Position numbers and translations under genes: made by a program | Source of the DNA: Candidatus Melainabacteria bacterium | GTDB taxonomy: Bacteria > Cyanobacteriota > Vampirovibrionia > Obscuribacterales > Obscuribacteraceae | Direction: 5' to 3' | Assembly (NCBI GenBank): GCA_013288645.1 | Contig: JABDBL010000011.1 | Span: forward strand, 1-64,000 | DNA: 64,000 bases | Part shown: positions 35,145 through 42,871 of the stretch, one piece after another | How positions within the stretch are numbered: the first letter of the stretch is position 1 | How the letters are laid out: every line of letters begins with the position of its first letter | Notes under the pieces: generated by a model | The model's database searches: none | Told to the model about the DNA's origin: nothing | Seen by the model: the letters and a program-made list of their open reading frames with translations, nothing else

Positions 35145-35528
35145 TCAGCCGCGCTGGATAAGTTGTTTTTCGAGAGTTTGTGGTTGTAGTGCTTTGGCGA
35201 GAATGGCTATGCTCAATTCTGGCTTACACGTAGTACCGCAAGTAAAGCAATCCCAAAATACTAGATTTGATTCTGGATAAGTGTGTAAACTGGCATGGCT
35301 TTCGGCGAGCACTGTTAGTGCGGTAACTCCTTGAGGCTGAAATTTGTGCGAGCACACTTCTAGCACTGTGGCGCCGGTGGCTATGGAGGCGTCGTAAACA
35401 AGAGAACGTAAACTGTCTTCGCAGTCTAGTATATTAGCAGCACAATTTTTGAAAGTAACAAGTAAGTGTTTGCCGCTCGGCGGATATTGAATTTCTTGAG
35501 TTGGGACTATCGTTTTAAGTATTTCCAT
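35145..35528 (-). CDS. speD: S-adenosylmethionine decarboxylase proenzyme
   Basis: A 127-residue prokaryotic-type AdoMetDC. The self-cleavage site ESHASLHTYPE is intact; cleavage before the serine makes the pyruvoyl group. The catalytic cysteine context FWDCFTCG is present. It supplies decarboxylated AdoMet, the aminopropyl donor for spermidine synthesis. It is the third gene of an operon (speE-like, FemAB-type, speD) and starts 11 bases after the FemAB-type gene, which makes a functional link to the first gene very likely. Confidence 0.95.
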   Translation of the reverse strand: MEILKTIVPTQEIQYPPSGKHLLVTFKNCAANILDCEDSLRSLVYDASIATGATVLEVCSHKFQPQGVTALTVLAESHASLHTYPESNLVFWDCFTCGTTCKPELSIAILAKALQPQTLEKQLIQRG

Positions 35529-35539
35529 TGACTGATTCT

Positions 35540-36610
35540 TTAGGCTAATGCTAATTCTGGAGCGGAATTAGTTTGTACGTTTACTTCTTGTACTACTTTT
35601 ATAAAGGTGTCAGCTAAAGTATCTAAGAAGAAATATTCTTGAGCACCAATAAGTGTTACTGGCTGTCCACCGAATTGACTTTTAAATTGTGAAAAGCGAG
35701 CATAGCGATGGTCAGGTGAACGAAAACGATCATAGCCATAAAAATCATAGGTGATGCAACCGGCTTGTTTGGCTAATTTCATAGAGTGCCATTGCAAAGC
35801 GTAGCCACCCATTAGGTTACGTTTATTGTCGGCAATGCCACCATATAAATATGTTGCTCTTGTGCCGTATATGATTAAGAGTAGAGTGCCTAGTGTGTCG
35901 CCTTCATGTTCGGAGAATAAGAATTTTGCATGATTGCCGGGTAGTAAATTATTGGCTAAATTTTGAAAGTATGATTTTGGTTCTAGAGCGAAATCATCTC
36001 GTGTACTTGCTTCTTGCATGACTGTGTAGAAGCGATCTACTACATTAACACTGCTATCTTCGGATACAGTTATTCCGTTACGCTGAGCTAATTTTATGTT
36101 ATAGCGACCTTTCTCTTTCATTTGTGCTAATAAAGATTCTTCGGATAAGCAAAGATCTATATAAAGAGTTTCGCGCGGTACTAAATCTACTGGGGCTCTG
36201 CTGAATTCGCGCAAATAAGAAGGAATAGGTCCTTCAAGGCGGGGTTCTATCCGTAAAGCCATGGCTGGAAATTGGTCATTGTTGGACTGAACAGTGTTCA
36301 AGATAAGGGCAAGTAATTCACGGGTTAATGCTTGGTCTGCCCAAGGTAGAACCGGGCCTTCAGGAGCAATGAGAATATTGGTACCGTTTTCTTTTTTTGC
36401 TTTGTAGAATAAAGCACCAGCAATTAATTCATCGCTTTTAAAGATTCCTAAATGAAGAGTGTCCAGTCCTTGTTGTTTTTTGGCTTGAGCCCAGTAAAGG
36501 CTTTGCATAATGCCGCTAATAGGATTTGTGCTAACCAGTTGTTCCCATTGTTTGCCTAATTCTGAATTTGGATCTAAGTTTGTTAAGGTACGAAGACTAA
36601 GAGGGCTCAT
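35540..36610 (-). CDS. FemAB/FemX-type aminoacyl (or acyl) transferase
   Basis: A 356-residue protein with two GNAT-like halves. SGIMQSLYWAQAKKQQGLD starts the family, and EKGRYNIKLAQRNGI followed by YLYGGIADNKRNLMGGYALQ and YDFYGYDR are conserved FemAB blocks. Relatives add amino acids from aminoacyl-tRNA to the peptide of lipid II; others make different amide links. The gene overlaps the stop of the spermidine-synthase-like gene by 14 bases and precedes speD by 11 bases. This placement inside a polyamine operon is unusual; its acceptor or donor could involve spermidine, but that is inference. Confidence 0.85.
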   Translation of the reverse strand: MSPLSLRTLTNLDPNSELGKQWEQLVSTNPISGIMQSLYWAQAKKQQGLDTLHLGIFKSDELIAGALFYKAKKENGTNILIAPEGPVLPWADQALTRELLALILNTVQSNNDQFPAMALRIEPRLEGPIPSYLREFSRAPVDLVPRETLYIDLCLSEESLLAQMKEKGRYNIKLAQRNGITVSEDSSVNVVDRFYTVMQEASTRDDFALEPKSYFQNLANNLLPGNHAKFLFSEHEGDTLGTLLLIIYGTRATYLYGGIADNKRNLMGGYALQWHSMKLAKQAGCITYDFYGYDRFRSPDHRYARFSQFKSQFGGQPVTLIGAQEYFFLDTLADTFIKVVQEVNVQTNSAPELALA

Positions 36611-38534
36611 TGTTTGAGTCCTTATCGCCTGAATCTTCTAAAGACTGAAAATTAGCAAAAGCTATTTTTGCTAAATCTATAGCTAGGGGCGTTTGCAAAA
36701 TTTCTTTATCCAGAGCAGCAATTTGATTATTAGCTTTTTGAATGGTTAATTGCGTGCGGCGGATAGCTTCAGTTCTTTCTATTTTATGAATACCGAAATT
36801 TACTAATACGTCTGGAGAAGACTTATATTCCTGCAATTCTTGTTCGAGAATTTCTTTTTGAGCAAGAATGTCCTTTTGATTTTGCAATAGTCTATTTTTT
36901 GTAGCTTCGACATTGCGCTCTAGTATAGATAAATAGGATGATTTGTTTGTATTTATATCATCCGGTAAGAAACCGCTTGTATTAGGTTTACTGAAAGTTT
37001 TGGACGGACCTGGTTGCTTGAGAGTTCTAGTGCCAGAAGATCCTGGAGCTTGTTTGATAATAGTTGTTTTCCGATTTGTATAATTAACACCCCGGTTCCA
37101 ATAAGGTCCATTAACCCAGGCACCATTTACATAGCCACCACGTCTGCCAACATTGTTTCCGCGATTCCCCCGGTTCCCAGCCGCAGCGTTATGATGACCA
37201 GCTCCGGCAGCAGGATGTTCTCCTTTGCCGTATACGCTGTCGGGATAAAGAACGTTGCCAACTATTATGACAAGAGTTAGTATGGTAATTACTCTTTGTC
37301 CTAAAGCCATAAGTGATAGATGGTCGCCTGCCCATTCTTGCAATTTGTCGCGCAGGAGCTCAAGTTCGGTAACTAATTGTGCGGGCAATTCTTTTGCTCG
37401 TTTCAGTAATTTAGCTACTAAGTCTTGTAAGTCAATGCCTTCCAAAAAGGAAGTTGGATTTTGCACGAATTCTTCTATTAATTCAGGCGGACATTGACTC
37501 TGCAGTGCGGGCATAAGTTTTAACATATCTTCCAAGAGTAGTTGCGAATCTGCGTCATCGCTAAGGTTCATTTGGGCCAAGGCAGAGCTTAAGCTAGGCG
37601 GCAAAATGTTTTTGCCAGTGTCGGATTCAGGAATAGAGTTTATATCAATATTGAATGAAAGCGAACTGAATGTGTTACCAGAGGTGGTGTAGGAACTGGC
37701 ACTGTTAAAATAATGTATTAAAATACTACTGCCAGCTTGGGCTGGAGCAGATTTTGATTGATAGGCAAATATCTCTTTGGGAAAAACGAAAAGCTCAAGA
37801 AGTTGAGCAATGTCTTTGATAAAGTTTCTTGGTTCTACTAAGGATGAAGTGGTCTCAAATTCTTGAGATAGGATAGGTTGCTTGGAAGCAATAAAAAAGC
37901 CCCAATCAGCTCCAAAACCTTTAGCAGTAAAAGAAGGTATTTGCACATGGTAAGGACGAACGTGCAAGTTGCCTTTGCTGATGCTATTACACACACTCCA
38001 AAATGCCTCAGGAGTAGCAAGAGCTGATACGCCGTTAATGGATAATACGCCACTAGGTGATAAAAGAGAAGAAAGCTTAGCATACCAGTCAATGCTGTGA
38101 AAACGGGCTGACTCGGCATCATCAGGCACCGTGAGGTCGCTTATGATCAGATCATAGTGAGGATTTGACTCAAGTGCTTTGTCAATAAAATTCCAGGCAT
38201 CTTCTATATGTATAGATAGACGGGGATCAGACAAGCTGGATTTATTTATATCGGCGAAATTGTCTCGAGCGTAATTTAAAATCTCAGGATCATAATCTAC
38301 TAAGTCTACTTTATTGATTTGTTTTGACTTAAAAAGCTCACGAGCAACTAAACCATCTCCGCCACCAATAATTAAAACATTCAACTGTGCCTGAATGCGC
38401 TGGCTGGCTAGAGCTAATGCTGGTAGAACTAATCCTTCATGGTAAATATGTTCATCTTTACTGTCGAATTGCAGATCATTATCGATATAAAGTGCAATAG
38501 ATCCGTCTTCTCCAGGTTCGAGCGAACTAGACAT
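36597..38534 (-). CDS. Spermidine-synthase-like domain fused to a membrane helix and extracytoplasmic coiled coil
   Basis: 645 residues. Residues 15-215 are an aminopropyltransferase: DEHIYHEGLVLPAL, LIIGGGDGLVARELFKS, LVDYDPEILNYAR and YDLIISDLTVPDD. Asp133 (the catalytic base position) is kept, but the usual D-x-T-D-P has Val in place of the second Asp, so substrate binding may differ. Residues 235-405 are helical. A membrane helix at 413-430 is followed by an Asn/Gly/Arg-rich stretch (445-485) and a coiled coil (about 520-625). ATG 38534 is chosen for its GGAGG seven bases upstream. First gene of the speE-like/FemAB/speD operon. Confidence 0.85.
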   Translation of the reverse strand: MSSSLEPGEDGSIALYIDNDLQFDSKDEHIYHEGLVLPALALASQRIQAQLNVLIIGGGDGLVARELFKSKQINKVDLVDYDPEILNYARDNFADINKSSLSDPRLSIHIEDAWNFIDKALESNPHYDLIISDLTVPDDAESARFHSIDWYAKLSSLLSPSGVLSINGVSALATPEAFWSVCNSISKGNLHVRPYHVQIPSFTAKGFGADWGFFIASKQPILSQEFETTSSLVEPRNFIKDIAQLLELFVFPKEIFAYQSKSAPAQAGSSILIHYFNSASSYTTSGNTFSSLSFNIDINSIPESDTGKNILPPSLSSALAQMNLSDDADSQLLLEDMLKLMPALQSQCPPELIEEFVQNPTSFLEGIDLQDLVAKLLKRAKELPAQLVTELELLRDKLQEWAGDHLSLMALGQRVITILTLVIIVGNVLYPDSVYGKGEHPAAGAGHHNAAAGNRGNRGNNVGRRGGYVNGAWVNGPYWNRGVNYTNRKTTIIKQAPGSSGTRTLKQPGPSKTFSKPNTSGFLPDDINTNKSSYLSILERNVEATKNRLLQNQKDILAQKEILEQELQEYKSSPDVLVNFGIHKIERTEAIRRTQLTIQKANNQIAALDKEILQTPLAIDLAKIAFANFQSLEDSGDKDSNNEPS

Positions 38535-39039: not shown

Positions 39040-39262
39040 TCTTTGCTACCTTCTAGCCCATCCGGTCTTGCTCAATTTAATAATATATATTAGTCAGTCC
39101 AATTTATCGTCTCATAATTGTTAGTAAAGGCTTCTTGGCCATCCATCTTTACATATCAAGAGATTTTGTAAGGATTGTGTTGGATTATCGTCCATAGTGA
39201 AAAAAAATCACTAAAATGTGGAATTAAAATATACAGTAGAAGGGCGTTTTTCCGAGGTCGAA

Positions 39263-40549
39263 ATGTTCGGTAAAGCTATAGGTCCAAAAAATAATAAGTT
39301 AGATTTCATATTATTGGACTTACTTAATCTATTTATTGCTCCTTTAGGTGGAGGGGCTGGTGCATATGTAGCCTATTATTTTGCCTCCAGCCATCATTGG
39401 AATGCAGGGCAAATAGGTATGCTTTTATCCATTATGGCCATGTGTTTGGCCGGTGCTCAGATTCCAGCCGGGTTAATAATAGACCATTTTCCCAAGAGGA
39501 ATCAAATAACAGCTTTAGCCTTGGGAGTAATCGCTATTAGCTGGCTCTCAATGTTAATATTTCCGCTACAGCCAGTAGTTCTGGTTTCTCAAGTTTTAAT
39601 TGGTTTATCGTGTGCTTTTTTTGCTCCAGCGTTGGCATCAATAACCTTAGGTTTAGTTGGTTATGAGGGTTTAGAGCATCGTTTAGGAAGAAACGGCATT
39701 TTTTCCCATATTGGCAATATGGTGACGGCTGTGCTGGTGGGGTTGTGTACAGCTTATTTGAGTGGACAAGCTATCATTGGATTATTAATATTCTTTTCGC
39801 TCTTGGCGGCTCTTTCGGCATTAGGTATACGCAGACAAGCTCCCATTATTAATAATGCTTCGGCAAAAAGTTTAGCTCAAGATTGTGGGGAGCGCTTTCA
39901 CCCTTTATTAAAGGGTTTGCAAGGTTTATTTAGCACCCGAGGTTCGCGGATATTTGCCATCGCTGCGCTAATGTATACCTTTGCTAATGCTTCAATGTTG
40001 CCACTTATGGTGCAATTAATATCTAAACAAGGGGCAAGTGCAGCAGCGGTTCAACTACCGTCATCACTTTTATTGACCGAATTGGTTATGATCCCTGTTT
40101 GTTTCTTAGCTAGCAAGTATGCTCGCTTGGGCAGACGCCCTTTGCTTATTTTGAGTTATCTTTTTCTGGTATTGCGCGGATTAGGTTTCACTTTCATTAA
40201 AACGCCTGCCATGATGGTTGCCATGCAAATTTTAGATGGCATGAGTGCTGGTATTTTTGGCTTGGTTGTTACTTTAGTAATCGCTGATTTTTGTCGGCAT
40301 AATAACCGTTTTAATTCCACATTGGCTGCTTTATATATGGTCCTGACCCTTGCCAATGGCTTAAGCGAGTTTAGCTCAGGAATGCTTGCCAATAATTTTG
40401 GTTTCAGCACAGCGTTTGCTATATTAACTGTCATAGCGACTGTTGGGCTTGTGATAATCGTAGCTTTATTACCAGAAACCCGGCAAGCGAGTGAATCTAT
40501 ATTGGCGGAAAGTAAAAATGGGCTATCTGTTGCTGCTACCGAGACTTAA
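39263..40549 (+). CDS. MFS transporter (first of two paralogues)
   Basis: 428 residues with about 12 helices. IAPLGGGAGAYVAYYF and LLSIMAMCLAGAQIPAGLII, then DHFPKRN (the loop 2-3 motif A region), and a repeat in the second half (VMIPVCFLASKYARLGRRPL) define an MFS drug/metabolite transporter. ATG 39263 is preferred over GTG 39218 because GAGG lies five bases upstream. It is closely related to the transporter at 41609, with the same helix 1-4 wording. First gene of a four-gene operon with gaps of 12, 18 and 1 bases. Substrate unknown. Confidence 0.88.
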   Translation: MFGKAIGPKNNKLDFILLDLLNLFIAPLGGGAGAYVAYYFASSHHWNAGQIGMLLSIMAMCLAGAQIPAGLIIDHFPKRNQITALALGVIAISWLSMLIFPLQPVVLVSQVLIGLSCAFFAPALASITLGLVGYEGLEHRLGRNGIFSHIGNMVTAVLVGLCTAYLSGQAIIGLLIFFSLLAALSALGIRRQAPIINNASAKSLAQDCGERFHPLLKGLQGLFSTRGSRIFAIAALMYTFANASMLPLMVQLISKQGASAAAVQLPSSLLLTELVMIPVCFLASKYARLGRRPLLILSYLFLVLRGLGFTFIKTPAMMVAMQILDGMSAGIFGLVVTLVIADFCRHNNRFNSTLAALYMVLTLANGLSEFSSGMLANNFGFSTAFAILTVIATVGLVIIVALLPETRQASESILAESKNGLSVAATET

Positions 40550-40561
40550 TTTGCCTACTAG

Positions 40562-41590
40562 ATGATAGGCGTAGGTCATATTATAGTGCGGATATTTATT
40601 GCTATGGGCCTATTGTTGTCCATCGGTCAGACTGTTGTTTATAGCCAGTCGATGGACAAAAACAAGGTGGAGGACGCGATGTCTAAGCCCTTATATTTTA
40701 GTGCGCCTGAAACTATTTATCCTTCCCCAGCATGGGTTCTGTCTGCTGCCATGGCGGACGAACAAGAAAACGATACAGCTATATTGTCTCAATTTGACCC
40801 TTTGTGGCAAGAAAACTTAGTGAGTGGGAAATTTGAGCAACTTCAATCGATAATTATTCCTGGCGGCATAATTGATGTCGTAAATAACCTAGTTTATCTG
40901 GAGAATGGCACAAACGATATTGTTGTACTTGATATAAAGACAGGACAAATAATGAGTCGTATAAATTGTGTTTGTTGTCCTTTAGCTGTTGTTGATAATG
41001 ATCTGTTGGCTTTGTCTAGAACAAAAGATGATGCGCAATCGAAGTATGACTTGTTAATGCTTGATGGCAATAATCCCCGCAGCAAAGCACGATGGGGAAC
41101 AATTTCATTACCGGATTGGCTAGCGCTGCCGGCTGATGGCGAGAGACAAAAGTTTATTTTCAATGCCCATTGCTATAACTATGTGCTATCAGTAGCATGG
41201 CAAGCTAGTCGCAGACAAATGTTTCCTAATCCACTTTCATTAATAATTCCTGCCATGGCACAGCCTGCGGCTCTCCAGGGTAATTTCAATTGTGATTTAA
41301 AAAACCAGACTATTATCAGTCAATCGATGCAAGAAGGCGACGCAGATTTTTTAGGCTATTTAACAGCTAACGAAAATTTGCCTCCTCAGATAGTTTTAGA
41401 TTCTGACACTATTGCCATTAGAAAGTATAATTATTACTTGTTTTCTCTGATCCGTTCTTATCCTCCAGAGCATAATATTTCCAATGCTGGCGTAGTAGTA
41501 AAGCTAGAATTGCGCGTTAAGGACATGCGGACAGGTAAAATATTGTGGTCACATATTTTGCCTGCTACATTCATGCCCTTAGCTATTTAG
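40562..41590 (+). CDS. Exported protein with beta-propeller-like repeats, unknown function
   Basis: A 342-residue protein with an N-terminal signal peptide or anchor (IIVRIFIAMGLLLSIGQTVV). ENGTNDIVVLDIKTGQIMSR and the closing VKDMRTGKILWSHILP look like PQQ-type beta-propeller blades, but the rest is too divergent to assign. Cys-Val-Cys-Cys follows the first blade. It lies between two paralogous MFS genes (12 and 18 bases away), so it may be a periplasmic partner of the exporters or a binding protein for their substrate. Confidence 0.7.
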   Translation: MIGVGHIIVRIFIAMGLLLSIGQTVVYSQSMDKNKVEDAMSKPLYFSAPETIYPSPAWVLSAAMADEQENDTAILSQFDPLWQENLVSGKFEQLQSIIIPGGIIDVVNNLVYLENGTNDIVVLDIKTGQIMSRINCVCCPLAVVDNDLLALSRTKDDAQSKYDLLMLDGNNPRSKARWGTISLPDWLALPADGERQKFIFNAHCYNYVLSVAWQASRRQMFPNPLSLIIPAMAQPAALQGNFNCDLKNQTIISQSMQEGDADFLGYLTANENLPPQIVLDSDTIAIRKYNYYLFSLIRSYPPEHNISNAGVVVKLELRVKDMRTGKILWSHILPATFMPLAI

Positions 41591-41608
41591 TTGTAAAATT
41601 CTTGTCTA

Positions 41609-42871
41609 ATGCAAAATATAAATTCCTCGGAAGAAAAATCTTCGAACAAATTAGCGCCCAATTTAAGGGCTTTGGATATGTTATGTTTGTTTTTAGCTCC
41701 CTTAGCGGGCGGAGCGAGCAATTATATGGCTCTTTTCTTCTCTTCCAGTTTGCATTGGAGTACTAATAAGATTGGCATTCTGCTGGCTATTATGTCCATT
41801 GCCATTGGTATAGCTCAAATTCCAGCCGGGGTATTAATAGATAAATCATCGCATTTAAAGCGAATAACTATGATCGCTTTGAGTCTATTAATTTTAGGAT
41901 GGCTCTCTATTTTAATTTATCCTGTTTTTTATACAGCAATCGTTGCTCAAGTATTGATAGGTGCCACCTGCGCACTATTTATGCCAGCCGTTGCATCTAT
42001 TACTTTAGGATTAGTAGGTTTCAAAAATTTTGATGTGAGATTGGGACGCAATGGTGTTTTTTCGCATGCCGGGAATTGCTTGACGGCAATGTTTGTTGCT
42101 TTTTGCTTAGGTATGTCTGGAAGCTGGTCTGTGTTATTGCTTTTCATAGTCTTTGCTTTTTTTGCGATAATTGCTACTAGTCGAATCGACAGAGACTGTA
42201 TTGATTATAATTATTTGCACACGCGAACGGCAAACCATACAGGAGTACACCCTCTTTTAGGCGGATTCGCTAGTCTGCTAAAATCAAAAACATCGGTATT
42301 TTTTACAATTGCTGCTCTTTTGTATACATTTGCTGATGCTTCGATGCTACCGTTAATGGTGCAGCGCATTGCTAGTATTGACTCTAAGTCTTCGAATGTT
42401 CATGTACCTATAGCGCTATTCTTGACTGAAATGGTAATGATTCCTGTATGTTATGCTGCGGGAAAGCGTGCCAAGTTCGGGAGAAAACCGCTTTTAATTA
42501 TTAGTTATTTGTTTCTGTTGATAAGGGGATTTTCTTTTACTTTTACCAGCGATCCTAATATGTTGGTTGCTTTACAAGTTTTAGATGGTATAAGTGCGGG
42601 CATATTTGGCTTGATGCTTACACTTGTTATATCCGATCTGTCAGTGGATACAGGCCGTTTTAATGCCACTCTTACTACTATGGGTATGTTCTTTACTTTA
42701 ACAAATGGCGTGAGCAATTTGATTTTCGGTTTTGCTACAGGCAAGTTTGGCTATCCAGTAGCATTTTCCACTATGGCTGTCTGTGCCGCTATAGGTGGAA
42801 TAATAATCTGGACGTTAGTGCCTGAAACCGTGAAAAAAAATTTGATATTAGTTCCGGGCATGGAGGTGTAA
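41609..42871 (+). CDS. MFS transporter (second of two paralogues)
   Basis: 420 residues with about 12 helices. LAPLAGGASNYMALFF and LLAIMSIAIGIAQIPAGVLI, then VRLGRNGVFSHAGNCLTAM and VMIPVCYAAGKRAKFGRKPL, match the transporter at 39263 block by block, so the pair arose by duplication. The two have clearly diverged at the sequence level, which argues against a recent copy. Conserved motif GRNGxFSH in helix 5 may be family-specific. It ends one base before the next gene. Confidence 0.88.
   Translation: MQNINSSEEKSSNKLAPNLRALDMLCLFLAPLAGGASNYMALFFSSSLHWSTNKIGILLAIMSIAIGIAQIPAGVLIDKSSHLKRITMIALSLLILGWLSILIYPVFYTAIVAQVLIGATCALFMPAVASITLGLVGFKNFDVRLGRNGVFSHAGNCLTAMFVAFCLGMSGSWSVLLLFIVFAFFAIIATSRIDRDCIDYNYLHTRTANHTGVHPLLGGFASLLKSKTSVFFTIAALLYTFADASMLPLMVQRIASIDSKSSNVHVPIALFLTEMVMIPVCYAAGKRAKFGRKPLLIISYLFLLIRGFSFTFTSDPNMLVALQVLDGISAGIFGLMLTLVISDLSVDTGRFNATLTTMGMFFTLTNGVSNLIFGFATGKFGYPVAFSTMAVCAAIGGIIIWTLVPETVKKNLILVPGMEV

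Follow-up and report, generated by a model that had tools for sequence, protein, structure and literature searches.

The 64,000-nucleotide stretch of DNA analysed here (the window: positions 1 to 64,000 of contig JABDBL010000011.1, Candidatus Melainabacteria assembly GCA_013288645.1, family Obscuribacteraceae) carries three genes that encode a spermidine synthase-like (SpeE-like) protein, a FemAB-type transferase and the S-adenosylmethionine decarboxylase proenzyme SpeD. The first two form a conserved pair that is found in four phyla. The central new observation, as read from alignments, is that both enzymes of the pair keep their donor-side and catalytic residues and that both have changed residues on the acceptor side, so that both appear to act on other acceptors. 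The pair is tentatively interpreted as a membrane-associated two-enzyme module that modifies an amine-bearing component of the envelope, with SpeD supplying decarboxylated S-adenosylmethionine (dcSAM).

Recurrence of the SpeE-like/FemAB pair

The SpeE-like and FemAB genes are neighbours in 56 distinct loci of Obscuribacterales, cyanobacteria, Herpetosiphon, Armatimonadota and Omnitrophota, an adjacency that is not due to chance. Counting the window genome (an assembly of 2.8 Mb, 72% complete), the module FemAB is present in 27 of the 48 genomes of the window's family, and the SpeE-like gene lies directly upstream of it on the same strand in all 20 family loci with enough upstream sequence. The module FemAB is absent from a 96%-complete sister species of the window genome and from all 31 sampled genomes of the same class outside the family. 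A scan of named genomes located the pair in cyanobacteria (Nostoc, Anabaena, Calothrix, Leptolyngbya and Pseudanabaena), in Herpetosiphon (Chloroflexota), in Chthonomonas (Armatimonadota) and in one Omnitrophota genome. The nearest FemAB relatives in named genomes belong to Obscuribacterales and to unclassified 'Cyanobacteria bacterium' metagenome-assembled genomes (MAGs); FemABs scoring below about 315 bits have no SpeE-like neighbour. Sampling 292 Cyanobacteriota genomes evenly added 8 with a module FemAB, which is paired with a SpeE-like gene in 8 of 8 and has SpeD within about 4 kb in 5.

The third gene, speD, stands beside the pair in 11 of 30 Obscuribacterales loci, and SpeD is encoded within 4.5 kb of the pair in 19 of the 28 loci outside the Obscuribacterales set. 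The speD of locus L035 was detected by a six-frame hidden Markov model search. The constant core is composed of FemAB and the SpeE-like protein, and speD is optional; SpeD was considered as the core of the system and ruled out, being its least constant member. The first-pass annotation had taken the three genes as one system and proposed to look for the triad in other genomes. The recurrent same-strand pairing across phyla agrees with this idea, the pair being found in four phyla and speD being variable. FemAB, whose loss from the operon in relatives would have spoken against a single system, is the most constant part of it.

In FastTree phylogenies assessed by local support, the module SpeE proteins form one clade beside the seven-transmembrane (7TM) SpeE proteins. 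The module FemABs likewise form one clade, separate from other FemABs, and its main subclades match those of the SpeE-like proteins. The single clade of each partner and the matching subclades suggest that the pairing was probably formed once and then inherited jointly. No mention of FemAB together with a spermidine synthase was found in a literature search that left most subscription journals outside its reach.

The SpeE-like protein

The SpeE-like protein matches PF01564 (E=3e-28) and scores far below every curated spermidine-synthase cut-off (TIGR00417, 105 against 249.6 bits; PRK03612, 212 against 472). The start of the SpeE N-terminal beta domain is missing. About 150 residues separate the SpeE domain from a predicted membrane helix (408-433), beyond which lie a stretch of low complexity and a helical hairpin. 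The original description of the first gene as spermidine-synthase-like is correct for the SpeE domain, but the protein is not a plain SpeE, as it has about 385 extra C-terminal residues with the helix that is predicted to anchor it in the membrane. The motif that closes this helix (Table 1) resembles a signal-peptidase site.

In human spermidine synthase, D104 holds the aminopropyl group, D173 deprotonates putrescine and D176 fixes the distal end of the diamine (D98, D167 and D170 in K. lactis numbering; PMC10146546). The equivalents of D104 and D173, which represent the dcSAM site and the catalytic aspartate of aminopropyltransferases, are each retained in 56 of 56 module proteins. The D176 position is occupied by Val (as in the window), Tyr, Phe, Cys, Ala, Leu, Trp or Ser, and never by Asp. 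By contrast, Asp is found there in all 40 SpeE relatives of the same class (20/20 canonical, 7/7 soluble and 13/13 7TM), and the Thermus triamine/agmatine enzyme also retains it. The simplest inference from the retention of D104 and D173 and the loss of D176 is that dcSAM would still be the donor and that the acceptor would not be a free diamine. A precedent is METTL13, in which the C-terminal domain is a relative of spermidine synthase (SpdS) repurposed to another amine (PMC6109062).

FemAB and its acceptor site

The FemAB protein matches PF02388 (E=6e-35, 121 bits against a cut-off of 24) and falls far under the FemX equivalog cut-off (71.7 against 500 bits). Its structural model has a pLDDT of 92. 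The best fold matches are to FemX (TMq 0.77-0.83), followed by FemA and by aminoacyl-tRNA-dependent transferases of streptothricin-type antibiotics (Sbb17/Sba18 with streptothrisamine). Such a FemX-type enzyme makes action on the envelope plausible.

FemX binds its acceptor, UDP-MurNAc-pentapeptide, through K36, R211 and Y215, and its catalytic residues are K305 and F304 (PMC4964394). The K36 equivalent is retained in 66 of 67 module FemABs, F309 and K310 are invariant, and the presumed K305 equivalent is present in 56 of 56. The R211 equivalent is Glu in 67 of 67, as compared with Lys in 19 of 21 FemABs that have no SpeE-like partner and Arg in FemX and FmhB; the register of E210 against R211 is the same in two further comparisons. 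The Y215 equivalent is Phe in 46 of 56. The residue set K36/R211/Y215 that characterizes FemABX enzymes acting on UDP-MurNAc-pentapeptide or lipid II is not complete in the module FemABs. The replacement of the UDP-MurNAc-binding arginine by Glu in every module protein speaks against the attachment of spermidine to the wall that was first suggested for this gene. The donor would be aminoacyl-tRNA, from which enzymes of this type acylate an amine. Where a polyamine is joined to the carboxyl of a stem peptide, which is the case in Selenomonas, the logic is reversed.

Gene neighbourhood

Among the 28 loci outside Obscuribacterales, a DUF4178 gene is found upstream of the pair in 22 and a DUF350 gene downstream of it in 20; in most cyanobacterial loci the pair lies between the two. 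Envelope operons composed of 7TM-SpeE, DUF350, DUF4178 and, in some cases, SpeD have been described and linked to PspA (PMC11237479). The flanking genes identify the pair as a FemAB-containing variant of this known module, and the window triad is a reduced form of the variant, DUF350 and DUF4178 not being found alongside it in the window genome. PspA and CesT-Tir were not noticed at the loci examined, where no specific search for them was made.

Two further arrangements were observed. Obscuribacterales relatives have a separate 7TM-SpeE operon (L145:6242-14529, with similar ones at L146-L159) in which DUF350 and two DUF4178 genes are accompanied by genes for a band-7/SHOCT protein and an FAD amine oxidase; SpeD is encoded close by. 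In six Leptolyngbya-type loci (L198, L199, L200, L208, L211 and L221) a DUF1611/DgcN-like gene, of a family named for the N-acetyltransferase DgcN, is located upstream of SpeD.

SpeD and the supply of putrescine

The window SpeD (AESHASLHTYPE...FTCG) keeps the processing and catalytic Ser, His and Cys (S63, H68 and C83 of T. maritima). A Pro distinguishes S-adenosylmethionine decarboxylase from the arginine decarboxylase SpeDA, which has been reported for Vampirovibrio (PMC10407285). The FQPQG segment of the window protein has a Pro, which may be the diagnostic one, that is missing in SpeDA-like paralogues. A second type of SpeD in the family has no Pro in the F-x-P motif and adjoins an agmatinase gene in several genomes (G022:C12:23619-24887, G038:C463, G031:C9 and G008:C35). 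The combination of a divergent SpeD with agmatinase (SpeB) suggests, from sequence, a putrescine route that starts with SpeDA arginine decarboxylase.

Neither agmatinase nor a SpeDA-type gene was found in the window genome (72% complete) or in its 96%-complete sister. The window genome encodes a second pyridoxal phosphate-dependent decarboxylase-fold protein, so ornithine or arginine decarboxylase and other putrescine routes are still possible. The carboxyspermidine route (nspC) was considered as an alternative source of spermidine and gave no match above the cut-off. A polyamine-independent role of SpeD (Li et al. 2019) is cited in PMC11237479.

Proposed pathway and alternatives

In the pathway that we infer, dcSAM would be formed from S-adenosylmethionine by SpeD. 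The SpeE-like protein would be held at the inner membrane by its helix, with the catalytic domain in the cytosol, and would transfer a 3-aminopropyl group from dcSAM to an acceptor amine, the acceptor being other than a free diamine. FemAB would then acylate an amine of the same acceptor from aminoacyl-tRNA, possibly the new aminopropyl amine. An envelope component would in this way gain an aminoacyl-aminopropyl side chain. One candidate for the acceptor, albeit a doubtful one, is a lipid-linked wall precursor.

Several observations weigh against this pathway. In 19 of 30 Obscuribacterales loci the pair has no SpeD next to it. One locus (L128, 5945-8177) has adjacent SpeE-like and SpeD genes and no FemAB, and no FemAB of the module type was found anywhere in its genome, G033; conversely, a locus in an Acaryochloridaceae MAG (L197, 5941-7005) has a module-type FemAB without a SpeE-like neighbour. 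The two exceptions imply that the SpeE-like protein and FemAB may be separable. The K305 equivalent is assigned by a conserved FK motif that lies just beyond the end of the sequence alignment with FemX, and the D104 equivalent would in principle also allow S-adenosylmethionine as the donor. The proposal is built on sequences and predicted structures, and its acceptor is only a candidate. Finally, the near-complete genomes G008, G019 and G022 have the module protein as their best SpeE-family match and possess the putrescine route (SpeDA-like protein and agmatinase); the module SpeE-like protein may yet synthesize polyamine.

Because of these three genomes, the strongest rival, although an unlikely one, is that the SpeE-like protein makes a polyamine, maybe from agmatine or some longer amine, which FemAB aminoacylates to a soluble or exported conjugate. 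The agmatinase gene adjoins the SpeDA-like gene in G008 and G022, FemABX relatives acylate the amines of cationic natural products (PMC12945691) with Sbb17/Sba18 among the fold matches, and the Glu that takes the place of R211 would fit well with a cationic acceptor. However, D176 is retained in all canonical, soluble and 7TM SpeE proteins compared, including the Thermus enzyme that works on triamine and agmatine, and the membrane anchor and the DUF350/DUF4178 linkage point to the envelope.

The first-pass annotation had proposed that the SpeE-like protein makes spermidine and that FemAB attaches it to peptidoglycan. Gene order, SpeD, the FemX fold and the membrane anchor would fit this model, and peptidoglycan with a polyamine bound to its D-Glu is known from Negativicutes (PMC10628300). 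Nevertheless, it is improbable and not supported as stated. Spermidine synthesis is disfavoured by the replacement of D176 in 56 of 56 module proteins, as against its retention in 40 of 40 relatives, and no agmatinase or SpeDA was found in the window genus. Wall attachment is disfavoured by the change of R211 to Glu in 67 of 67 and by the reversed chemistry, since FemAB acylates amines and wall polyamines, where known, are amide-linked to a carboxyl of the stem peptide. In addition, PF04230 pyruvyl transferases are available for SLH proteins in 47 of 48 genomes, so a polyaminated wall is unnecessary to explain SLH anchoring. The related idea of an outer-membrane tether, in which a polyaminated wall replaces the pyruvylated polymer for SLH proteins, was set aside: PF04230 is found in 47 and SLH in 45 of 48 relatives irrespective of the module, and presence or absence cannot discriminate this idea.

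Still less probable is that the SpeE-like domain methylates amines with S-adenosylmethionine as donor and that SpeD belongs to another pathway. The repurposed SpdS-like domain of METTL13 (PMC6109062) and weak matches to generic methyltransferases would allow this, but the D104 and D173 equivalents are fully retained and SpeD is linked repeatedly in unrelated arrangements. Least probable of all is a regulatory membrane protein that senses the envelope or polyamine state via dcSAM and controls FemAB or the DUF350 partners without catalysis; the anchor, the large, variable extracytoplasmic tails and the Psp-type context of relatives (PMC11237479) would suit such a sensor, which would have no need of the invariant equivalent of the catalytic D173.

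SpeE-like membrane proteins without an assigned substrate are located in envelope-stress operons, and SpeD has polyamine-independent roles. With FemAB as the constant second enzyme of the proposed envelope-modifying module, its chemistry narrows the possible product. Because the module occurs in cultured organisms (Nostoc, Anabaena, Calothrix, Leptolyngbya and Herpetosiphon aurantiacus DSM 785), a direct search for the product is feasible. With a wall precursor as acceptor, the module would represent a new cell-wall modification; with any other acceptor, a FemX-type and a SpeE-type enzyme would both have moved to a new acceptor.

Organization of the window locus

The three open reading frames are oriented in one direction on the minus strand, in the order SpeE-like, FemAB, speD (Table 1). 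The start of FemAB overlaps the stop of the SpeE-like gene by 14 nucleotides, and 11 nucleotides separate FemAB from speD, the arrangement described initially, with which both reading frames and family matches agree. Elsewhere in the window (39218-42871) an unrelated gene of 342 amino acids (aa) lies between two similar MFS transporter genes, which looks like a tandem duplication.

Table 1. Genes and sequence features of the SpeE-like/FemAB/speD locus in the window
Feature	Position	Strand	Description
SpeE-like gene	36597..38534	-	645 aa; GGAGG upstream of ATG; aminopropyltransferase-like domain, membrane helix, low-complexity linker, C-terminal helical hairpin
Aminopropyltransferase-like (SpeE) domain, residues 1-260	37755..38534	-	PF01564 match 28-219; model pLDDT mostly 85-98; Foldseek to 1uir E=3e-16
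D133, equivalent of catalytic Asp173 of human spermidine synthase	38136..38138	-	Kept in 56/56 module proteins
V136, at position of putrescine-anchoring Asp176	38127..38129	-	Asp in 0/56 module proteins vs 40/40 other SpeE of the class
Predicted transmembrane helix, residues 408-433	37236..37313	-	Hydropathy; helix 413-429 in model
Motif N-x(3)-P-D-x(2)-[FY]-[AG]-K-G closing the helix	37221..37256	-	Present in 42/47 full-length module proteins, across phyla
C-terminal two-helix hairpin, residues 527-635	36630..36956	-	AlphaFold model, pLDDT mostly 80-97
FemAB gene	35540..36610	-	356 aa; FemX-type tandem GNAT fold without helical arm; Foldseek to FemX TMq 0.77-0.83
E210, at position of FemX Arg211 (UDP-MurNAc-pentapeptide binding)	35981..35983	-	Glu in 67/67 module FemABs; Lys in 19/21 other FemABs
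K310, inferred equivalent of catalytic FemX Lys305	35681..35683	-	Invariant
speD, S-adenosylmethionine decarboxylase proenzyme	35145..35528	-	127 aa; TIGR03330 above curated cut-off
S77, predicted self-cleavage (pyruvoyl) serine in AESHASLHTYPE	35298..35300	-	Ser/His/Cys equivalents kept in module SpeDs

Comparison with known systems

The 7TM-SpeE operons resemble the module in having a SpeE domain on a membrane protein and, often, SpeD; DUF4178 and DUF350 neighbours are shared by 22 and 20 of the 28 module loci outside Obscuribacterales, but not by the window form. The module SpeE-like protein differs in having no N-terminal 7TM domain: it starts at the SpeE domain and has a single helix near residue 420, a C-terminal helix of its own with the N-PD-AKG motif. 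The 7TM-SpeE proteins keep DFPDP (13/13), whereas the module proteins lose D176, and FemAB as a constant partner sets the module apart.

FemX of Weissella and FmhB/FemX of Staphylococcus share with the module FemAB the tandem GNAT fold, the equivalents of K36 and, presumably, K305, and a score above the Pfam cut-off. The module FemAB differs from them by the invariant Glu for R211, by Phe in most cases for Y215 and by the lack of a helical arm. The FemX-like natural-product transferases VlmA, DhpH-C, PacB, Orf11 and Sbb17, which acylate small amine acceptors from aminoacyl-tRNA (PMC12945691), have the same fold, but they are located in antibiotic clusters, whereas the partners of the module FemAB are the SpeE-like protein, SpeD, DUF350 and DUF4178.

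The polyaminated peptidoglycan of Selenomonas and Veillonella (Negativicutes), in which a diamine is amide-linked to the D-Glu carboxyl (PMC10628300), would likewise place amine groups on the envelope. There the amide is formed on a carboxyl of the stem peptide, opposite to FemAB chemistry. A further known system is the PspA operons that contain a glutathionylspermidine-synthetase-like ATP-grasp ligase and SpeD (PMC11237479). Like the module, they combine SpeD, an amide-bond-forming enzyme and DUF350; the enzyme is an ATP-grasp ligase in these operons and an aminoacyl-tRNA-dependent type of transferase, FemAB, in the module.

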